Source of the DNA: Silvibacterium dinghuense | Lineage (GTDB): Bacteria; Acidobacteriota; Terriglobia; Terriglobales; Acidobacteriaceae | Assembly: GCF_004123295.1 (NCBI RefSeq) | Contig: NZ_SDMK01000005.1 | Location: 1-64,000 of the forward strand | Length of the DNA stretch: 64,000 bases | Direction: 5' to 3' | Shown here: positions 12,474 through 26,319 of the stretch, in pieces | Numbering within the stretch: the stretch's first letter is position 1 | Layout: every line of letters starts with the position of its first letter | The notes under the pieces: generated by a model | What the model saw: the letters and a program-made list of their open reading frames with translations, nothing else | Database searches by the model: none | Told to the model about the DNA's origin: nothing | Program-made: the position numbers and the translations under genes

Positions 12474-12635
12474 CCCATTCCCGCTCCGGCCCGCTGATGC
12501 CGCTGCATTACGCCTCCAGATTCCATCCATTTGCTTTGGTACACTTCTGTGGAACCCTCAGTCTAATAAGGACGGTTCGACACTTTCGGCTGGTATAGAC
12601 CGTCCGCGCCGCCAGCGCCCGGACGGGGAGGTTGC

Positions 12636-15029
12636 ATGCAGCGGTTTCTCGCCTTTTTAGCACTGTTCATCTTTGCTCTTCCCGTAGGACTTTCGATCTC
12701 AGGTTGCCAGACTCAGACCGGCGACTATTGCAACGGCCTCGGCTATGGTCCAAAGACCACGGCTGTCTATGCAATCGACCTTGAGCCGAAGACCACCGGC
12801 ATCTCTCTCTCCTGGGGCCAGACCGGCCAGATCACCTCGCCGACCGCGACCACCTGCAAAGGCGCCAGCGCCTCCGTCTCCAGCTATACCTACGGCAGCA
12901 GCAATCTTGACCTGGCGGACATCTCCCCGACCGGCGCCATCTGCGGCGGCACCTGGAATCGCCACAGCGCCGGCGGCATCGCCGACTACACCATCTGCAC
13001 CCCGCCCTCCGGCTACACCAGCGAGACCTGCTCTTCCTCCACCTGCGGCGTCGTAGAGATCACGGCCACTGCGGCGGGCGTCACCAGTAATACCGTCCCG
13101 GTTTACATTCACCCGCCCATTTCATCGATCAGTATCAATGAGTCAGACTCCAGCTCGTCCGGCTCTACCCTGCCGACCTCCTGCGTCTCTCAGAACAACG
13201 CCGGGCCCACATTTACGGCGACGGGCAGCGATCCCAACGTCTTTGTCTATGGTCCGAATGGCACGGTGATTCCGTCCGCCGACATCGGCACCATCACCTA
13301 TACGCCGGTCACCAGCTCGGTCGTCACCATCAATAACCTGAGCTCCACCGGAACCGGCACCAACGGCGCGACCACCGCCGAGCTCCCCGGCTCGACCGTC
13401 GTCAACGCCTCGGTGGCCAGCGTTTCGGCCGCGGCCGGCTACTTCTTCACCTGCGCGCCGACCAGCATCGACCTCTCGCTCAGCTCCACGACCATCAATC
13501 CGAGCACACCGCTGACCATCTCGGCGGCCATCGCGGATGCCAATGGCACCTCGCTTACCGGTCTGACGCTCGATTACACCTCGACCCGGCCGGAAGAGCT
13601 CGCCGTCAGCTCCGCAGGCGTCGTTACGGCAACCTATGCCTCGGAGGCCGCCGTCAACGCGATCTGCCAGCCGACCACCTGCAATCCCTCGCCTATCGAC
13701 CAGATCGGCTATCTCGGCAACGGCATGCCTGTGGTCTCGAATACCCTGGACCTCACCTCGACCGGCCAGTCCAGCACCCTGCTCTGGATGGCCTCCACCG
13801 AGTCTCAATACTTCTCCGAGGTCGACCTCACCAACGGCACTCCCTCTTCGCCGGTCAAGCTGCCCTATATTCCGAACTCGATGAAGACCGATGCCTCGGG
13901 CACCAACCTCTTCTTCGGCAGCTATCGCGAGCTGATGGAGTACTCGGCCTCGACCAACTCACTGAGCCAGGAAAATACCAACGTTCCGGGTGTGGTGCTG
14001 GCTGTCTCTCCCGACTCGACCACGGTGGTCATCAACGACCAGCTCCGCGACGTGATCTACCTGTACACGGTCTCGAGCGAGTCCTACACGAGCATCGCCG
14101 GTGTAGCCACCAGCGCTCAGTTCTCACCCGACGGCAAGAATGTCTACATCGTCGGCTGCGTGCCCAGCGGCAGCACCACCGCCGGCCAGGGCTGCAGCGC
14201 GTCCAACAGCGGCGGCTCCGGCGCGCTCTTCGTCCACAACGCCAACAGCGGCTGGAGCACCTACAGCGGAACCTTCACGCTGAGCAGCGCCGCACAGGCC
14301 TGCACGCTGAATAACAACAGCTCGCTGGTGACCGGCAACTACGATCCCTTCTGCGGAACAGGCGTGGCCGTGACCATCCCGGCGGTCGGCCCCTTCATCT
14401 CCGGCGGCAGCGCCACCACCGCGCATAGCTTCTGCCCCAATACCAACGCAAGCCCGGTCTATTACCCGGCGGCTTCGATCGGCACTGCGGCCAACGCGGT
14501 GACCGATAAGGTCGGCGCCAGCAACGATGGCGCGCACATCTATGGCGCCAGCGCTTCGGACAATACCTTCTCCGACATCGGCGTCACCGTGCCGACCGGC
14601 GCATGCCCCTCCTACTCGGGCGATGCGTTGAGCTTCACCACAACGCTCAACCAGACGACGATGTCGCAGATCTCTCCGACCGAGATCACCGATATCGAGT
14701 CCTCGCCTTACTCCACCTCGGCCTTCGTCACGTATACCGCCAGCTCGGCCTCAGGCCTGCTGCCCTACTACGTGCCGTCCACCACCTCGGGCGCAGCCGG
14801 AACCCTCAGCTACCTCCAGCTCTCCGGCTCGGCTGAGGCGCCGGTCGCCGGTATCTACTCGCCTGACGCGTCGCTCTTCTTTGTCAGCACCACCGGCGAT
14901 AACCTGGTCCACTTCGTCAACACCTCGACCTTCACCGACACCAAGACCATCAACCCTGGCCTGGTCAATCCTTCCGGGACCGCGGTTCCGGTGCAGATGA
15001 TGGTCGTCAAGCCGCGCTCTACCACCTAG
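12636..15029 (+). CDS. Large secreted lipoprotein with Ig-like repeats and beta-propeller
   Basis: 797 residues. The N-terminus is a lipoprotein signal peptide with ISGC at residues 21-24. The first ~350 residues are Ser/Thr/Gly-rich with bacterial Ig-like character (for example SSTTINPSTPLTISAAIADANG followed by GVVTATY). The second half has propeller-like blades: FSPDGKNVYIVG, YSPDASLFFVSTTGDN and similar. Such proteins are common and poorly described in Acidobacteriota; a surface or adhesion role is only inferred. GGGGAGG precedes the ATG. The gene ends at a very strong terminator. Confidence 0.8.
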   Translation: MQRFLAFLALFIFALPVGLSISGCQTQTGDYCNGLGYGPKTTAVYAIDLEPKTTGISLSWGQTGQITSPTATTCKGASASVSSYTYGSSNLDLADISPTGAICGGTWNRHSAGGIADYTICTPPSGYTSETCSSSTCGVVEITATAAGVTSNTVPVYIHPPISSISINESDSSSSGSTLPTSCVSQNNAGPTFTATGSDPNVFVYGPNGTVIPSADIGTITYTPVTSSVVTINNLSSTGTGTNGATTAELPGSTVVNASVASVSAAAGYFFTCAPTSIDLSLSSTTINPSTPLTISAAIADANGTSLTGLTLDYTSTRPEELAVSSAGVVTATYASEAAVNAICQPTTCNPSPIDQIGYLGNGMPVVSNTLDLTSTGQSSTLLWMASTESQYFSEVDLTNGTPSSPVKLPYIPNSMKTDASGTNLFFGSYRELMEYSASTNSLSQENTNVPGVVLAVSPDSTTVVINDQLRDVIYLYTVSSESYTSIAGVATSAQFSPDGKNVYIVGCVPSGSTTAGQGCSASNSGGSGALFVHNANSGWSTYSGTFTLSSAAQACTLNNNSSLVTGNYDPFCGTGVAVTIPAVGPFISGGSATTAHSFCPNTNASPVYYPAASIGTAANAVTDKVGASNDGAHIYGASASDNTFSDIGVTVPTGACPSYSGDALSFTTTLNQTTMSQISPTEITDIESSPYSTSAFVTYTASSASGLLPYYVPSTTSGAAGTLSYLQLSGSAEAPVAGIYSPDASLFFVSTTGDNLVHFVNTSTFTDTKTINPGLVNPSGTAVPVQMMVVKPRSTT

Positions 15030-16041: not shown

Positions 16042-16254
16042 GTGTATCGACCTATAGCGATAGTAAGAGGCTGTCATTTCGACCGGAGCAGGACCGTTTT
16101 GTGGTCCTGCGGAGTGGAGAAACCTGCGGTTCTCCCTGTACCGGCAAACCGCAGGTCCCTCCACTGCGCTTCTCCACCCCAGTGCGCTCCGGTCGGGATG
16201 ACAACGATAAGGGTTAGTTCTTATTTTCAGACCATCTATGAGGTCGATACACCC
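16042..16254 (+). repeat. Dispersed palindromic repeat, copy 3
   Basis: Same family as the copies at 5239 and 7532, same orientation. Outer arms GTGTATCGACCTATAG and CTATGAGGTCGATACAC are well matched here. The interior includes a short extra CTTCTCCACCCCAGTG insertion. It fills the gap between the beta-lactamase start and the GGDEF-EAL stop. Confidence 0.85.
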
Positions 16255-18576: not shown

Positions 18577-21429
18577 TCAGAAATTCAGTGCCACATGTAA
18601 ATACATAATCCGATTCGCCTGGTTACTCGAGTACACCGTCGTCACCAATGCGGTCGAGTGCCCGAACTCCGGCGCGCTGAGCACTCCCTCCGGAGGACCG
18701 CCATTCACGATATTCAGAATGTTTTGTCCCTCGAAGCCCAGATTCATCTGGTATTTCCGTGCTCCCGGAGCTCCGCCCTCACCAGGCGTCACGGGGCCAA
18801 AGGCAAAGTCCCGCGAAGCACTGAAATTCAGCATCACCACCGCGGGCCCGGTGCCGTAATTGATGGGGATGACGTTCTGGCCCGGCAGCGGATCGGCATC
18901 GAAGTTCCCCCACTTCGTGCGATAGACACTCGGCCGCGAAAGATCGGTCGCAAAGGCCGGGCGGTCGTTGTACTGGGAATCGCCGTTCAGGTCCGTTCCA
19001 GTTGTGATGTTAAACGGCATGCTCGATTCGAAGACCAGGAAAGGATTGAGCTCGAACTTGCCCGGCGTGTTTGCCAGCGCCCCGACATACAACCGGTGCC
19101 GGATGTCGTTCGCTGCGCGGCCCCAGTCCTGGCGCAGATCGTACTGGTTCGAAGGAAAGCTGCCCGGTCCTGCTGTATCCGCTCTGGCATGCCCATAGCT
19201 GTAATTGCCGTAGAGCGTAGCCCATGAGGTCCGGTAATGCACGTTCACAAAGAGACGGTTGCGCGTTGAGTTCGCCTCGCTCTCGTATTCGTAAATGTTC
19301 TCGTTGCCGCCCATCGGCCGCGTACCGCTGGTTGGGTCGTCAGGGTTATACGTGCCGGGCAGCGGCGCGTTCACATTGCGCGTCAGCAGCTGGTCGAAGC
19401 CTTTAAACCAGCTCCAGTCCGCAGAGACCGTCCAGCGCTTGTCGAAGGTCTTGTCCACGCTCACGCCGCGCTGCACCACATAGGGAGCATGCAAGCGACT
19501 GCTGATGCGATAGATCGTCGGCTGCGCTCCAGGACCAAAATCCGCAGGAGCGGGAACGGATGGGTAGAAGTCCGGATCATTCACCACCCACCGCTGCTGC
19601 CGGATGCCGTTTTCACGCCCTGCAATGAGGATGTACTTCGGATCGAAGCGGCCATAGAAGATGCCCGCGCCAAGCCGCAGTACTGCCCACGCAGGCTTAT
19701 CGTGATCGGGGCCGCGATTCGCTCCTATCCCCCATGACCAGCTCCCGCGCGGCGCCCAGTCCGCATGGTCGGGGATGCCTGACTGCATCTCATACCGCAG
19801 CCCGAGATCGAGGGTCTGGTTGGAGCGTATCCGCCATTCATCTTCGGCATAAAGTCCGAGGTCGGCCACATTCACGCGCAGCCGCGGCGTTCCCAGCGCA
19901 TAGCTGAACTGGCTGGCTCCGCCGCCCAGGGTGCGGATCTCCGCCATCGTCAGCCCTGCTGCAAGCCCCTGCTCGGTAATCTCGTAGGCCTCGATCGAAT
20001 CGAAGAGGAACTGTCCGTTGTAGCCTGCCGTCGAGGTGCTGTCGTCATCGACATCGCGCAGCCGTCCCCCCAGCCGCAGCAGATGGCGGCCCAGTTCGTG
20101 CGAAGCATAATCCTGCAGCTCGTAGCGGTTCTGCCCCTCATGCAGCTGCCCATTGCTATTGCCGCCTCCATTGAAGGCGCCCTCGACCACCACCTCGCTC
20201 GCCGCGCTCACCGGCACCGTGCTGTCATTGGTCCGCTGGAACTGGAAGCGCGTCTCGTTCACCGTGTGCGGTCCCCAGGTCTGCATATCGGCCAGTTGCA
20301 GAGCCTGCTCGGTATGGCGCGTGCTGAAGGCCATCGACGGCAGCGACAGCTGACTATCCAGCAGGTTGTCCTGCGCCTGCCGTCCAAACTGGTAGCGCAT
20401 CGTGATCTGCTGGTGCTTTCCTATCTGAAAATCGATCCGCGGCCCGGCGTCCGTCGAGGTAAACGGGCTGCTCAACGCCGTCTGATACACCGGCCCGGTG
20501 CTCGACGTCGTCGCATACACATAAGACTGCGCGCCCACATCCTGCCGGTCGGCAGCCAGAAACCACGAACTGGACCTGGTCAGCGGTCCACTCAGATCGC
20601 CGCTCGCATAAAACGCCGCATACTCCGGCTGCTCCACGACAAACGGATTCTTGGTATCGAACGCCGAATCTTCACCCAGCAGGTCCAGGTCACCGTGCAG
20701 CTTGTCCCCGCCGGCCTGCGTGAAGACCTCCACATGGTTTTCGCCGGTCGAGTCGTACTGTGCCGAATAGGGGTTCTGGTTCAGCCGGATCTCGCGGATC
20801 GCTGCCTTGGGAGGCAGGCGGCTCATCGTGAAACCATCCACCTGCATGTTCATCGGCGATCCGCTGCCAGACATCGCCTGCAGCAGCGTCTTCAGATCGC
20901 CCGGGTTTGTCGGCAGCGATGCCAGATCGCGCCTGGTCAGCACCAGGGCCTGCTGCGAGCGCTCCGGCGTCGCATCCAGCTCTTCCCCGCTCACGGCTAT
21001 ATCCTGCCGCTGTATTTCTATCTTCAGAGAGAGCCTCAGCCGCAGTGAAACTCCGTCCTCAACCTGCAGCCCAGTGCGGTCCTCGGCCTGAAAACCCTTT
21101 GTCACGATGTGCAGAGAATAGGCTCCGGAAGCCAGAGCCTCGAAGCGAAAGGTGCCTTCCGCATCGGAGCGGCCCAGCAGCGAGGCTCCATCCGGCCCAG
21201 TCAGCACCACCTGCGCTCCAGCCACCAGCGCCCCGGTCGGATCGACAATCACTCCGGAAACGCTTCCTTCTGCTGCCCGTACCTGGCTGTGTCCTTCGGT
21301 GAGCACCTGCGCCCGCACCATTCCAGCCCCGGCGATCAACAGGAGAGCCAGAATCAACCAGGCTTGCGGAGTTCTTCGCCTCTCAGGCTTCCCCAACTGT
21401 CGATACGCCGCTACAGACCACCAGCCCAT
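18577..21429 (-). CDS. TonB-dependent receptor, Oar-like with carboxypeptidase regulatory domain
   Basis: About 950 residues from the ATG at 21429, which has GGGAG five bases upstream; the longer frame to 21543 lacks this. After a signal anchor ending MVRAQ, residues ~55-140 form a CarboxypepD_reg-like fold (VSGVIVDPTGALVAGAQVVLTG, LASGAYSLHI). A plug region (LPTNPGDLKTLLQAM, IREIRLNQNPYSAQYD) and a long outer-membrane barrel follow, ending in an aromatic residue (VALNF). Such receptors import large ligands or, in Oar relatives, handle adhesion and protein export. The substrate is unknown; no TonB/ExbB genes are nearby. Confidence 0.88.
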   Translation of the reverse strand: MGWWSVAAYRQLGKPERRRTPQAWLILALLLIAGAGMVRAQVLTEGHSQVRAAEGSVSGVIVDPTGALVAGAQVVLTGPDGASLLGRSDAEGTFRFEALASGAYSLHIVTKGFQAEDRTGLQVEDGVSLRLRLSLKIEIQRQDIAVSGEELDATPERSQQALVLTRRDLASLPTNPGDLKTLLQAMSGSGSPMNMQVDGFTMSRLPPKAAIREIRLNQNPYSAQYDSTGENHVEVFTQAGGDKLHGDLDLLGEDSAFDTKNPFVVEQPEYAAFYASGDLSGPLTRSSSWFLAADRQDVGAQSYVYATTSSTGPVYQTALSSPFTSTDAGPRIDFQIGKHQQITMRYQFGRQAQDNLLDSQLSLPSMAFSTRHTEQALQLADMQTWGPHTVNETRFQFQRTNDSTVPVSAASEVVVEGAFNGGGNSNGQLHEGQNRYELQDYASHELGRHLLRLGGRLRDVDDDSTSTAGYNGQFLFDSIEAYEITEQGLAAGLTMAEIRTLGGGASQFSYALGTPRLRVNVADLGLYAEDEWRIRSNQTLDLGLRYEMQSGIPDHADWAPRGSWSWGIGANRGPDHDKPAWAVLRLGAGIFYGRFDPKYILIAGRENGIRQQRWVVNDPDFYPSVPAPADFGPGAQPTIYRISSRLHAPYVVQRGVSVDKTFDKRWTVSADWSWFKGFDQLLTRNVNAPLPGTYNPDDPTSGTRPMGGNENIYEYESEANSTRNRLFVNVHYRTSWATLYGNYSYGHARADTAGPGSFPSNQYDLRQDWGRAANDIRHRLYVGALANTPGKFELNPFLVFESSMPFNITTGTDLNGDSQYNDRPAFATDLSRPSVYRTKWGNFDADPLPGQNVIPINYGTGPAVVMLNFSASRDFAFGPVTPGEGGAPGARKYQMNLGFEGQNILNIVNGGPPEGVLSAPEFGHSTALVTTVYSSNQANRIMYLHVALNF

Positions 21430-21675
21430 GGATCTCCCACACTGCGCATGGAGCAGAAAACAAGGCTCCTGTCGCGTCTTCACATCTACCTGGCAGACAC
21501 CTCCAGCGGCACGCCGCCCGTACTTCTGCGCCGTCGCCCGCAAAGCTTTCTATGCGCGTTCCGGGTGACCTCAAGATAAATGAAAAATCTGCAATCGAGA
21601 CAGCCAGCACGCGCTGGCCCATGCCGTCCGGTTGGGGGGAAAGACGGCTTTATTAACTAAACCGTAAATCCGCAC

Positions 21676-21845
21676 GAAATCCCTTTTTCCCCACTCCCAC
21701 TCTCGTGTTACTTCGTTGCTCGCGAAGTGGGATTTCCCATCCGGTGCTCTCGCAGGAGACTGATCCTGTCACGAGGGTTGCGGTTTGGGGGAACAACAGC
21801 TCTCAAGACGCGCAAGGCCCGCCATCCGGCGGGCCTTGCGTCTTT
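21676..21845 (+). ncRNA. Small-RNA-like element, copy A
   Basis: First of three related elements. Order: a 5' hairpin region (GAAATCCC / GGGATTTC), a short hairpin CAGGA-loop-TCCTG (21754-21769), a conserved unpaired block (TCACGAGGGTTGCGGTTTGG then GGGAA, about 21769-21793), and a terminator hairpin of 13 bp (CGCAAGGCCCGCC, 21811-21840) with TCTTTTG. The block is shared with 23679 and 23889 while hairpin sequences differ but still pair, which argues for an RNA rather than a peptide. Orientation is set by the terminator tail. The Rfam Acido-1 or Acido-Lenti-1 families are possible identities that I could not check. Confidence 0.65.
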
Positions 21846-21951
21846 TGTATAGAGCCAATACGGTATTGTTCCGACGTGATTGCAGCGCTCATCGGAATCG
21901 GCATCGAAGCAGCTTCTACGCGCCGCAGCTTCTACACACCATGGTGCTGAC

Positions 21952-22119
21952 TCAGCGTCCCGCCTGCTTCTTGAAAAACATACCCGCCGCCAGAAACAGC
22001 GCCGACACCACGGCCGCAAGCACGCCCCGGCTCAGAGCATGGTGATGCAGTGCGAGCACGGCATCGAAAAACCATGCCGCCGCACCCAGAAACCATATCC
22101 GATAGGAATTCCGGCTCAC
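21952..22119 (-). CDS. Tiny two-helix membrane protein
   Basis: 55 residues from GTG at 22119, too short for ordinary ORF cut-offs. It reads M-S-R-N-S-Y-R-I-W-F-L then two hydrophobic helices (WFLGAAAWFFDAVLAL and VLAAVVSALFLAAGMFF) and ends KKQAGR. The basic ends and His-rich turn (LHHHALSRG) suggest a helical hairpin. It follows the methyltransferase stop by 37 bases on the same strand, so co-transcription is likely. Function unknown. The start is uncertain because no good ribosome site is visible. Confidence 0.55.
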   Translation of the reverse strand: MSRNSYRIWFLGAAAWFFDAVLALHHHALSRGVLAAVVSALFLAAGMFFKKQAGR

Positions 22120-22156
22120 TCTATTTATGGGATGCAGCAGTCCATGGCAACGGTCC

Positions 22157-23557
22157 CTACTCCACCTTCAATACCAGGCACTTCAGGTACTCGGTCTCGG
22201 GGATGGTCAGCACCACCGGATGATCGGCAGCCGCGCCGCGCCGCTCGAGCAGCCGCACCCGCCGTCCGACATCACCTGCCGCAGCGGCCACGACGGCCTG
22301 GAACTCTGCTCCGGAAACATGATGCGAGCAGGAGTTCGTGACCAGTACGCCACCCGGACGCAGCATCTTCATCGCGCGCAGATTCATTTCCTTATAGCCG
22401 CGCAATGCCCCCTCCACCGCACGCTTCGACTTGGCAAAGGCCGGAGGGTCGAGCACGATGGTGTCGAACTTCGTTCCTGCCTCGCTCCAGTCCTTGAGCA
22501 GATCGAAGGCATTCGCCTCCATCCAGTCGACCTGCGCCTTCAGGTGCGGGTTCAGACCGAGATTGCTTTCGGCCACTTCGAGAGAGGCGTGGGAGACGTC
22601 GACGCCGGTGACCCGGCTGCAGGTCTGCGCCAGGTGCAGCGCGAAACCGCCCTGATAGGTGCAGACATCGAGCGCCTCGCCGTGCGCATAGCGCGCTGCG
22701 GCGGAGTAGTTCTCACGCTGATCGAGGAAGGCCCCGGTCTTCTGCCCGGCCGCCGCGTCGTAGTGGAAGGCAAGCCCATTCAAGCGAAAAACAGTCTTCA
22801 GCAGCGGCTCTTCTTCCGCCGACCACAGCGGCGCAGAGCCAGCATCGGCGCTCAGCTTCTCCAGCTCGCGAATCCGCGGGTCGGGCCGTTCCACGATGAC
22901 CGACACCTCCGGACCGAGTGCCGCACGCAGCGTCTCTGTGACCACAATCCGTACCGCTACCGAGTCCAGAGCCTTCGAAAGCAGCTGCACCACGACCAGG
23001 CGGCCGTACTTGTCCACAATCAGACCCGGCAAACCATCTGCCTCGCTGAAGACCAGCCGGCTGGCGTCCGTGTCCGTGCCGGTAAAAATCGGCTGCCGCT
23101 GCTCGATAGCCGCCTTCAGCCGTGAGGCCAGCAATCCGAGCCACGCTGCCTCGCTCTCCAGCACCTCCGTCGAGATCAGCCGCAGGGCGATCTCCGAGTA
23201 GGGACTGTAAAGCGCCGTCCCCAAGGCCACGCCGCGCGTATCGTTCACCGTGAGCAGGCGCGGAGCATCGGCTTCCGCCCCGGCCTCGACGATCGCGTCG
23301 GCCGGCAGCGCCGCAATATCCGACCGGTAGACCCACACATGCCCACGCCGCAGCCGCTCGGCGCCGCGCCGCGAGACTACCGCTACGCCCGCCTCGCCCA
23401 TCTCCAGCGCCGGAGCCGGCCGCACGCTCTTCTGCGCCGGCCGGCGAGCGCCATCGCGCTTCTCCTGCCGGTTTGCGAGGCTCTTCCCCTTGCTCTTTGC
23501 CTGGGCCGGACGTTCTGCGCGCGGCCCTTTCCCTGTAGCCTGTTTATCTGTCTTCAT
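22157..23557 (-). CDS. Class I SAM-dependent rRNA large-subunit methyltransferase (RlmI-like)
   Basis: 466 residues. A Lys/Arg/Ala-rich N-terminal extension of ~50 residues comes first. A PUA-like domain follows (RRGAERLRRGHVWVYRSDIA, ALGTALYSPYSEIALR). The Rossmann methyltransferase domain has the SAM loop LDVCTYQGGFALHLAQ and catalytic-site motif LDPPAFAKSK (D-P-P-A). RlmI methylates C1962 of E. coli 23S rRNA at C5; the same target here is an inference. The basic extension, likely an RNA-binding tail, is unusual relative to E. coli. It diverges from rsh, with two RNA-like elements between. Confidence 0.88.
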   Translation of the reverse strand: MKTDKQATGKGPRAERPAQAKSKGKSLANRQEKRDGARRPAQKSVRPAPALEMGEAGVAVVSRRGAERLRRGHVWVYRSDIAALPADAIVEAGAEADAPRLLTVNDTRGVALGTALYSPYSEIALRLISTEVLESEAAWLGLLASRLKAAIEQRQPIFTGTDTDASRLVFSEADGLPGLIVDKYGRLVVVQLLSKALDSVAVRIVVTETLRAALGPEVSVIVERPDPRIRELEKLSADAGSAPLWSAEEEPLLKTVFRLNGLAFHYDAAAGQKTGAFLDQRENYSAAARYAHGEALDVCTYQGGFALHLAQTCSRVTGVDVSHASLEVAESNLGLNPHLKAQVDWMEANAFDLLKDWSEAGTKFDTIVLDPPAFAKSKRAVEGALRGYKEMNLRAMKMLRPGGVLVTNSCSHHVSGAEFQAVVAAAAGDVGRRVRLLERRGAAADHPVVLTIPETEYLKCLVLKVE

Positions 23558-23617
23558 GCCAAACAGTCATCTTCGCACAGTGAGCCTGCGCTCTCCCATG
23601 GGGCGTTCTCCCACTAC

Positions 23618-23760
23618 CGTGGTATCCCACCTCCCGACTCGTGGGATACCACTCCTGTTGGACCTGCGGGAGACTGATCCTGTCACGAGGTTGCGGTTTG
23701 GGGGAATCTCACTCTCGGGACACAAAAGGTCTGCCTCGCCGGCAGGCCTTTCGTTTTGTG
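23618..23760 (+). ncRNA. Small-RNA-like element, copy B
   Basis: 5' hairpin with a perfect 12-bp stem (GTGGTATCCCAC 23619-23630 / GTGGGATACCAC 23641-23652). Then hairpin GGGA-gactga-TCCT, the conserved block from CCTGTCACGAGG (23679) through GGTTTGGGGGAATCTC, and a terminator (AAAGGTCTGCC / GGCAGGCCTTT) ending TTTTGTG near 23760. Each stem differs in sequence from copy A but keeps pairing. It sits in the gap between the divergent rlmI-like and rsh genes. Confidence 0.65.
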
Positions 23761-23837
23761 GGGATTGCCTCATCCCACCTCGGGCACCAGTCCTCCTGCC
23801 CCTCCGTAACCGATACCGCACTACCTCTGTGCTACCC

Positions 23838-23972
23838 AGCCGCACCACTTGTGGGATACCCAACAGGAGCAGGCTGCGAGACACTAAGCCTGTCAAGAGG
23901 GTTGCGGTTTGGGGGAATCTCAGCTCTCAGGGCACGAACGGCCTGCCATACGGCAGGCCGTTCGTATTTGCC
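23838..23972 (+). ncRNA. Small-RNA-like element, copy C
   Basis: Third copy. The central hairpin is CAGGCT / AGCCTG (a compensated change from CAGGA / TCCTG). The block reads CCTGTCAAGAGGGTTGCGG then TTTGGGGGAATCTCAGCTCTC. The terminator is a 14-bp perfect stem ACGAACGGCCTGCC (23934) with ATAC loop, followed by ATTTG. It ends about 75 bases before the rsh ATG, so it could also act as an rsh leader element. Confidence 0.65.
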
Positions 23973-24048
23973 GCCCAAAGAGCCTCCCAGATCACCGGTC
24001 TCAGCCTTCCGTTCATGCATCTGTCGCCCGGCCCGTATAAAATAAGAC

Positions 24049-26319
24049 ATGGCAACCGCCCCGACCGAATCGAAGACCGGGACCCAGACCGGCTCGCCCG
24101 CCGAGCAGAACGCCACGCTCTTCGCCGAGAAGTTCCAGCAACTTGTCGACACGGTCCATGCCAATCGCCCCTCCGACGATACCGAGATCATCCGCCGCGC
24201 CTGGCAGTTCTGCCTGGAACACCACGACGGGCAGCTCCGCGCCTCGGGCGAGCCCTACGTCTTGCATCCGCTCGAGGTCGCCATCGTCCTCGCCAGCATG
24301 AAGCTCGACTCGACGGCCATCGCCGCCGGTCTGCTCCACGACGCAGTGGAAGATACGCCCGTCACCACCGCCGACATCACCACCCGCTTCGGCGAACAGG
24401 TCGCCCACATCGTCGAGGGCGTCACCAAGATCGACAAGATCGAATTTGCCAACAAGGAAGACCGCCAGGCGGAGAACGTCCGCAAGATGCTTCTCGCCAT
24501 GGTCTCCGACGTGCGCGTCGTCCTCATCAAGCTCGCCGACCGCCTGCACAACATGCGCACGCTCCAGCATCTGAAGCCGGAGAAACAGCAGGCCATCGCA
24601 CGTGAAACTCTCGACATCTATGCGCCGCTCGCCCACCGCCTGGGCATGGGTAAGGTCCGCGGCGAGCTCGAAGACCTGGCCTTCCGTTACGTCGATCCCA
24701 TCCAGTACGAGCAGGTACAGGAAGCCGTCGACGAGCGCCGCAGCGAAGGCGAACAGTTTCTCTCCGGCGTCGAGGCCCTGCTCAATGAGAAGCTCCGCGA
24801 GGCCAACATCAAGGCCCGCGTGCAGTGGCGTATCAAGCGTCTCTACTCCATCAACCAGAAGCTGCAGAAGTCGCAGATCTCGGTGGACCAGGTCTACGAC
24901 CTTCTCGCCCTGCGCGTCATTACCGCCAGCGTTCCCGACTGCTACGCGGTCTTCGGCATCATTCACAGCATCTGGCGTCCTATCCCTGGCCGCATCAAGG
25001 ACTTCATCGCCATGCCGCGGCCGAATCTGTATCAGTCCCTGCACACAACCGTGATGGGCGAAGCCGGCCACCAGTTCGAGGTCCAGATTCGCACCGAGGA
25101 GATGCACCGCATCGCCGAAGAAGGCATCGCCGCGCATTGGAAGTACAAGGCAGGCGGCTCACCGATCTCGGCGCGAGATGAGCAACGCCTCACCTGGGTC
25201 CGCCAACTCGTCGAGTGGCAGCGCGAGATGAGCGATCCGAACGAATTCCTTTCGACGCTCAAGATCGATCTCTACCCGGAAGAGGTTTACACCTTTACGC
25301 CGAAGGGCAAGGTCGTCGTGCTTCCCAAGGACGCGAGTCCTCTCGACTTTGCCTATTCGATTCATACGGAAGTCGGCCATACCTGTACCGGCGCAAAGGT
25401 GAACGGGCGCATCGTGCCGCTGCGCTATAAGCTGCGCAACGGCGACATTGTCGAGGTCATCACCCAGACCGGCCACACGCCGAGCCGCGACTGGCTCTCG
25501 ATCGTCAAGAGCTCGCGCGCTCGCAACAAGATCAAGCACTGGCTCAATGAGCACCAGCGCGAGCGGGCCATCGAGATTGGCCGCAAGCTGCTGGAGCGCG
25601 AAGCCCGCAAGTACAAGATCTCGCTCTCGAAGTACGACGAGTCCGACTACGAGCGCATCGCTATCGACTACAGCCTGACCACGCCGAACGACCTCATGTC
25701 GGCCATCGGCTTCGGCAAGTATTCGGCGCGGCAGGTGCTCAACCGTCTTGCTCCGGGCGTCATCAGCCAGCCCACGCCGCAGCCCGGCATCGAAACCGAC
25801 TCCGGCAATGGGCCCTCCGATACCGTCAAGCGCGTCGCCATCACCAGCAATGCCGACTCTCTCCAGGTGGAAGGCCAGGACGAGTTCCTCGTCTACCGCG
25901 CGCGATGTTGCAATCCGATCCGCGGCGAAGAGATTATCGGCTACGTCACGCGCGGCAAGGGTGTCGCCGTCCACGCCCGCAGCTGCCCCAACGTGCAGAA
26001 CCTTCTTTATGAGTCGGATCGCCGCATCGCCGTGGAATGGGCGCGCGCAGGCGACGATATCGCGGGCCGCAAACTTACTTACCCTGTGAAGCTAACTGTC
26101 TTCTGCGATGACCGCACCGGCATGCTCAAGGAGCTCACTGCCGTCATCAGCGACGAGAACACCAACATCCGCACCGTCGACTCCAAGCCGGGAGAGAACG
26201 ACGACGCCATCGTCGAATTCGTCGTCGAAGCCGAAGACCTCCGCCACCTGAACCGGCTGGTCATGGGCCTGCGCCGCGTTCCCGGCGTACGTGACGTGCA
26301 GCGGTCGCAAAAGCTGTAA
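24049..26319 (+). CDS. rsh: Bifunctional (p)ppGpp synthetase/hydrolase (RelA/SpoT homologue)
   Basis: 756 residues, the long RSH layout. Residues ~30-190 are an HD hydrolase domain with intact HP..E and LLHDAVEDT motifs. The synthetase domain (~240-360) carries RIKDFIAMPRPN-YQSLHT and the EEGIAAHWKYK segment. A TGS domain follows (VYTFTPKGKVVVLPKDASPLDFAY), then a Zn-finger/helical region with conserved CCNPIRGEEIIGY. A C-terminal ACT domain ends the protein. It makes and degrades the stringent-response alarmone. Both catalytic domains look intact. The RNA-like elements upstream make its regulation worth testing. Confidence 0.96.
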   Translation: MATAPTESKTGTQTGSPAEQNATLFAEKFQQLVDTVHANRPSDDTEIIRRAWQFCLEHHDGQLRASGEPYVLHPLEVAIVLASMKLDSTAIAAGLLHDAVEDTPVTTADITTRFGEQVAHIVEGVTKIDKIEFANKEDRQAENVRKMLLAMVSDVRVVLIKLADRLHNMRTLQHLKPEKQQAIARETLDIYAPLAHRLGMGKVRGELEDLAFRYVDPIQYEQVQEAVDERRSEGEQFLSGVEALLNEKLREANIKARVQWRIKRLYSINQKLQKSQISVDQVYDLLALRVITASVPDCYAVFGIIHSIWRPIPGRIKDFIAMPRPNLYQSLHTTVMGEAGHQFEVQIRTEEMHRIAEEGIAAHWKYKAGGSPISARDEQRLTWVRQLVEWQREMSDPNEFLSTLKIDLYPEEVYTFTPKGKVVVLPKDASPLDFAYSIHTEVGHTCTGAKVNGRIVPLRYKLRNGDIVEVITQTGHTPSRDWLSIVKSSRARNKIKHWLNEHQRERAIEIGRKLLEREARKYKISLSKYDESDYERIAIDYSLTTPNDLMSAIGFGKYSARQVLNRLAPGVISQPTPQPGIETDSGNGPSDTVKRVAITSNADSLQVEGQDEFLVYRARCCNPIRGEEIIGYVTRGKGVAVHARSCPNVQNLLYESDRRIAVEWARAGDDIAGRKLTYPVKLTVFCDDRTGMLKELTAVISDENTNIRTVDSKPGENDDAIVEFVVEAEDLRHLNRLVMGLRRVPGVRDVQRSQKL

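Follow-up and report, generated by a model that had tools for sequence, protein, structure and literature searches.

A putative small RNA with a G-rich hairpin loop, in three copies near an outer-membrane beta-barrel gene of Silvibacterium dinghuense

The window analyzed here spans the first 64,000 bases of a contig of 374,838 bases from the 5.1 Mb genome of a soil acidobacterium and contains three similar elements, hereafter copies A, B and C. We consider it reasonably probable that a single small noncoding RNA (sRNA) gene is present here as three sibling copies, and that its product would act in trans through pairing of a G-rich loop and would be tied to outer-membrane control. The RNA is probably a regulator of a common type, with an unusual hairpin tip made only of G. 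Judging from the genomes searched, the family is apparently restricted to the genus and undescribed, with a local expansion.

Copies in the window and in the genus

A 221-base query over copy A recovered three places in the 5.1 Mb genome, namely itself and copies C and B (79-80% identity, E values of 2.6e-14 and 1.8e-16). All three copies are on the + strand and within 2.3 kb (Table 1), confirming the original prediction of three homologous elements. Pairwise identity between the copies was 0.65-0.73. Two motifs had been proposed for the shared block: GGTTTGGGGGAA is exact in all three copies (at 21782, 23695 and 23906), but TCACGAGGGTTGCGG has an exact match in copy A only. The terminator scan listed copies A and B, but not copy C, which has a weaker T tail. 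A promoter scan of 21300-24100 found no sigma-70-like promoter. Copies B and C clustered on the sRNA tree (support 82/88), suggesting a local duplication, with copy A perhaps occupying the ancestral-type site. The fourth-best match to the core model in the window was a long near-perfect hairpin at 16114-16165 (-), with TGCGGTTTG/GAACCGCA (13.4 bits, E 0.1), which is probably unrelated to the sRNA.

Table 1. Positions of the sRNA copies, their parts and the neighbouring beta-barrel gene in the window
Feature	Position	Strand	Basis or remark
Outer-membrane beta-barrel protein with carboxypeptidase-regulatory-like domain, head-to-head with copy A	18577..21543	-	Pfam PF25183, PF13620
Candidate contact site TTCCCCCCAACC, complementing 11/12 bases of GGTTTGGGGGAA	21630..21641	-	In the leader of the beta-barrel gene
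Copy A, sRNA unit (5' conserved box to terminator tail)	21693..21846	+	Alignment A3; R1 151.7 bits
Copy A, box E1 CACTCTCGTGTTA (consensus CACTCTCGTGCTA); RNA hairpin or DNA element	21698..21710	+	Alignment A3, mean pairwise identity 0.79
Copy A, box E2 GTGGGATT, 16 nt past E1 in every copy	21727..21734	+	Identity 0.90; variable gap-free spacer
Copy A, core hairpin, GGGG loop	21767..21809	+	R2 66.3 bits
Copy A, intrinsic terminator and T tail	21810..21846	+	Terminator scan (stem 21810-21841)
Copy B, sRNA unit	23609..23758	+	Alignment A3; R1 120.9 bits
Copy B only, 12-bp perfect stem	23619..23652	+	Inverted pair I7; not conserved
Copy B, core hairpin, each arm one base shorter	23681..23721	+	R2 49.1 bits
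Copy B, intrinsic terminator and tail	23725..23758	+	Terminator scan (stem 23725-23751)
Copy C, sRNA unit	23816..23969	+	Alignment A3; R1 146.4 bits
Copy C, core hairpin, GGGG loop	23891..23933	+	R2 66.6 bits
Copy C, terminator-like stem-loop, 14-bp arms, weak T tail	23934..23969	+	Inverted pair I4; absent from terminator scan list

The sRNA unit was found with model R1 in 5 of the 9 Silvibacterium genomes, with three copies in the species of the window and one in each of four others: Silvibacterium bohemicum S15 (G006), Acidobacteriaceae bacterium ZG23-2 (G001) and two metagenome-assembled genomes (G002 and G008). All four genomes of the genus that are at least 90% complete carry the unit, and the non-carriers are drafts of 74-89% completeness. 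R1 was built from these seven sequences (three from the window, four from the other species) and scores those same copies at 121-159 bits. Window copies and the copies of the other species share an identity of 0.59-0.71, and we regard DNA similarity and pattern matches in the other species as the independent evidence beyond chance. Copy B, used as a DNA query against 61 genomes, matched its own genome and two congeners, and the 15-base core with at most 1 mismatch matched 21 of the 61 genomes, gaining two further congeners. Reading of the flanks, which left out five core matches without a locus (one each in G000 (C2), G006 and G021, two in G053), showed the unit to continue only in the Silvibacterium matches of G000, G001, G002, G006 (one of three) and G008 (one of two). 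There were also 14 weak R1 matches within the genus, of which six overlap, in antisense, copies already identified; the eight examined were terminators beside genes, or unconvincing.

Outside the genus, R1 was run on 398 genomes of the family, with 7 candidates scored per genome, and matched 10 genomes at E ≤ 1e-6, five of them from other genera. These five were rejected as homologues, the match being confined to the terminator. Because of the limit of 7 candidates per genome, the scan was repeated with a 43-nt core model, R2, which gave weak matches outside the genus in 3 of the 398 family genomes and 4 of 396 phylum genomes, one genome being in both (E from 1.3e-4 to 5.2e-3 per genome). The six genomes were rejected as well, since these values are at chance level for the number of genomes and the surroundings lacked the unit in each. 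A look for the block in other Acidobacteriota had been proposed as a check: four further Silvibacterium carriers were found, but neither the 398 genomes of the family nor the 396 of the phylum yielded a convincing homologue beyond the five carriers, and the stricter filters and few candidates scored per genome in these large scans mean that distant homologues could be missed. A scan of named contigs gave 5 matches, one of them in Oligoflexia, which was rejected on flanks that do not fit the unit. In the phylum genome G707 (L122), a hairpin at 1490-1570, CGGGGTCACGGTTCGGGGGAACGGTGGCCCCG, is close to the sRNA apex and enclosed by a long perfect outer stem; it had no Rfam match up to E=0.1.

Conserved structure

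We compared the blocks of the unit over the seven sequences. Identity was 0.79 for E1, 0.34 for the spacer up to E2, 0.90 for E2, 0.32 for the second spacer, 0.69 for a TGCGAGA-like stretch, 0.31 for six columns, 0.91 for the core, 0.66 for the 3' arm and 0.80 for the terminator, and both spacers are gap-free. A strong stem-loop closes each window copy, as had been claimed, but the terminators are homologous in the alignment and not unrelated as first thought. RNAalifold predicted a 15-pair core hairpin with the apex GUUU-GGGG-GAAC, a 14-pair terminator and 3 pairs within E1, the core hairpin and the terminator being consecutive and not mutually exclusive. The conserved block, initially read as an unpaired seed, forms the 5' arm and the GGGG loop of this core hairpin.

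The structure came from the very sequences on which it was assessed, which favours the pairing statistics: 98.2% of 221 cells pair, compared to 94.9% in shuffled alignments and at most 48.9% in slid ones; five pairs are changed on both sides (four in the terminator and one in the core hairpin), compared to 2.0 in shuffles, a number equalled by 2 of 500 shuffles; and the covariation score was matched by none of 500. Further pair types were unexceptional, with 117 of 500 shuffles equal or better. In copy B, both core arms have lost one base, as expected if the arms pair, and the predicted fold of the core is more stable than that of composition shuffles in 7/7 sequences (z from -2.0 to -5.2). 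Six-frame translation found no frame open throughout all seven sequences. Together with covariation of hairpin and terminator above shuffles and slides on most measures, though not for further pair types, this upholds the view of a noncoding, separately terminated, sRNA-like element.

The predicted stability of the core hairpin depended on where the RNA was taken to begin. With the full 5' region included, the mean core pair probability was 0.99 in the four other species and 0.0, 0.17 and 0.05 in copies A, B and C, which are predicted to favour alternative folds. It was 0.98 for copy C when the RNA begins at E2, 0.85 for copy A only if the RNA starts close to where the second spacer ends, and 0.20-0.71 for copy B from E2 on; the pairs scored were those of the shared alignment, to which copy B fits more poorly. 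The 12-bp 5' stem is indeed perfect in copy B, but it lacks conservation (pairing in 59.5% of cells, with 0 pairs changed on both sides). A central hairpin CAGGA/TCCTG found little support (pairing in 71.4% of cells, with 88 of 500 shuffles as good), copy C pairing in another register. Two-state pairing of E1 with a hairpin arm was rejected, being strong in copy A and G006 only and showing no covariation (means of -9.9 kcal/mol on the diagonal and -9.3 kcal/mol off it).

Gene neighbourhood and proposed mode of action

The start codon of the beta-barrel gene facing copy A is uncertain (an ATG lies at 21429), and we take proteins like its product to be TonB-dependent or Oar-like. The sRNA is head-to-head with the orthologous beta-barrel gene in 5/5 carriers, with copy A in this place in the window, and the five proteins are 54-74% identical. 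In G001, G002, G006 and G008, the sRNA is directed away from a gene of 934-1013 aa whose start is a few hundred bases distant, and in these four other carriers the downstream gene is convergent with it. The convergent protein may be lipoprotein-like, as its N terminus suggests, and that of G002 had no Pfam match; the window homologue of the convergent gene is elsewhere, at 12576-15026. From this gene order, we regard the beta-barrel gene as the conserved association of the sRNA.

Among the non-carriers, the beta-barrel orthologues of G004 and G007 have a readable upstream region without the sRNA; the match in G005 starts 360 bases from the contig end, so that its upstream region could not be judged, and the best match in G003 is 40% identical. 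A search for hidden copies near the beta-barrel or lipoprotein-like genes of the non-carrier genomes gave nothing convincing. G004 and G007 form one clade in the protein tree, without a resolved place among the carriers, so that the pattern could reflect either a single loss or a single gain. At 21952-22119 (-) there is a small frame that resembles a membrane protein, about 55 residues long (VSRNSYRIWFLGAAAWFFDA...); its look-alikes in G004 and G007 adjoin the beta-barrel gene, with the orientation relative to that gene reversed.

The original prediction had instead hinted at translation or the stringent response, from the neighbouring genes for an rRNA methyltransferase (rlmI) and the (p)ppGpp enzyme (rsh). 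Both rlmI and rsh are found in S. bohemicum some 2-4 kb past the 3' end of the beta-barrel gene, with the sRNA on the far side of the latter; in the window, the 5' side of the beta-barrel gene, with copy A, faces rlmI. The beta-barrel/sRNA module is thus in reverse orientation relative to rlmI-rsh, the sRNA staying with the beta-barrel gene. In S. bohemicum, about 200 bases separate the alignable portions of rlmI and rsh, with no sRNA copy between them, and its single strong copy is beside the beta-barrel gene. The stringent-response or translation link was therefore rejected, the sRNA of S. bohemicum keeping to the beta-barrel gene, away from rlmI-rsh.

We infer transcription, the 5' end, the use of Hfq, the targets and the direction of regulation from the sequences. 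Each copy would be transcribed from the + strand and would stop at its own intrinsic terminator. The RNA would display the GGGG loop on the core hairpin, with the terminator next to it, and the loop may contact C-rich single-stranded stretches of mRNAs by antisense pairing in trans, perhaps with the assistance of Hfq. A role in the control of outer-membrane proteins is suggested by the conserved neighbour. Three Pfam matches to Hfq above the cut-off were found in the genome (L074, L075 and L076), the best at 100.4 bits and the other two weak, at 37.2 and 30.9 bits. A Csr/Rsm-titrating sRNA was rejected: CsrA had 0 matches at E ≤ 0.001 in the genome, which excludes its titration as far as searched.

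The beta-barrel mRNA itself was considered as a target. Pairing of the core with the beta-barrel leader reached -32.8 kcal/mol in the window species, with 14 of 300 shuffles as good, and was not notable in the four other species (99 to 224 of 300 shuffles as good). The loop-region complement TTCCCCCAAACC has 4 window sites at ≤1 mismatch, compared to 0.20 expected; three are the sRNA copies and the fourth, the only one besides them, has the same strand as the beta-barrel mRNA and is the candidate contact site. With two mismatches, 6 sites were found compared to 3.7 expected, which is not exceptional. The site forms the entire loop of a predicted 7-bp hairpin, whose fold is not unusual (z -1.1), and is absent from the beta-barrel leaders of the other four species. 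A kissing control of the beta-barrel gene, in which the core GGUUUGGGGGAA would pair loop to loop with the exposed leader-hairpin loop UUCCCCCCAACC, thus seems unlikely to us, the site having been noticed post hoc and not being conserved. If it were true, two head-to-head, non-overlapping RNAs would make the sRNA a locally encoded, trans-acting riboregulator, later multiplied towards rlmI-rsh in the window species. On the + strand, 21625-21650 reads CCGTC-CGGTTGGGGGGAAA-GACGG followed by CTTTATTA, a further G-rich hairpin resembling the sRNA loop, and the candidate contact site is its - strand.

Instead of acting on mRNAs, the G-rich hairpin could trap C-rich sRNAs and thereby free outer-membrane receptor mRNAs of repression, a sponge activity that we find rather unlikely. 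In the available part of the report on CrfA of Caulobacter, an analogous G/A-rich stem loop pairs with the UUUCCUCCCU core of the sibling sRNAs SisA-D and so raises TonB-dependent receptors (PMC12559287). By analogy with this partial account, a G-rich stem loop and an outer-membrane link are common to CrfA and the Silvibacterium sRNA, but the loop sequence of the latter differs from the complement of the CrfA partner.

The conserved parts might also act at the DNA level or bind a protein, the hairpin or E1-16 nt-E2 being recognized by a protein that regulates the divergent promoter and any RNA made being incidental. The divergent gene arrangement, the palindromic E1 of several copies and the fixed spacing of 16 nt over a gap-free, near-random spacer would fit this. 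However, the hairpin and the terminator are the best conserved parts and are kept by copies B and C away from the beta-barrel gene, and a search of 9 genomes for E1-N16-E2 with ≤3 mismatches, as a shared promoter type, gave 5 matches, all at sRNA loci. We hold this explanation to be improbable.

Copy C, which ends about 80 bases ahead of rsh on the same strand with a hairpin-plus-terminator layout, could be read as a cis-acting leader (riboswitch or attenuator), but neither copy A nor the copies of the four other species have a same-strand gene directly downstream, and the consecutive arrangement of core hairpin and terminator gives no mutually exclusive pair; such a leader is very improbable. 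A small protein gene (long open frames do cross the block in this GC-rich genome) or a mobile repeat (three copies inside 2.3 kb) is equally far-fetched, given that one-base indels in copy B and G001 shift the frame within the core and the stops differ, that the other carriers have one strong copy each at the orthologous site, and that searches of plasmids, phages and viral contigs gave no match to the unit.

Relation to known RNA regulators

The suggestion that the elements might equal a known Rfam family was not borne out, nothing reaching gathering scores over the window. Acido-1 (RF01686) and Acido-Lenti-1 (RF01687) are likewise candidate noncoding RNAs of Acidobacteria, as far as the available part of their description goes (PMC2864571); neither model matched the window at gathering scores or was among the 5 Rfam matches up to E=5 in 21500-24100. 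No paper listed in searches of the literature on sRNAs of Acidobacteria and on Silvibacterium described the family, judged by titles and abstract openings, and a 2022 review tallies, in its available part, 4 distinct annotated sRNAs for Acidobacteria (PMC9029176). A conserved family with defined borders and a single copy in the cultured S. bohemicum S15 could thus offer an entry point to RNA regulation in the phylum, and the constant outer-membrane neighbour would allow specific target tests.

Among described regulators, sX13 of Xanthomonas is, in the part of its report available, also a strongly structured sRNA with a homopolymer-like loop, but its loops are C-rich and act on G-rich mRNA motifs (PMC3771888); the GGGG loop of Silvibacterium is the mirror image of such C-rich loops. 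Sibling sRNAs such as PrrF1/2, OmrA/B, AbcR1/2 and the csRNAs occur, according to the accessible portion of a review, as several related, nearby and separately terminated copies (PMC4211561), as found here with three similar copies in one genome, each with its own terminator (the T tail of copy C being weak) and without a reading frame. No sequence relation is known between those siblings and the putative Silvibacterium sRNA. The tandem AbcR1/2 of Agrobacterium share over 65% identity in that same portion (PMC4211561), a value alike to that between the window copies.
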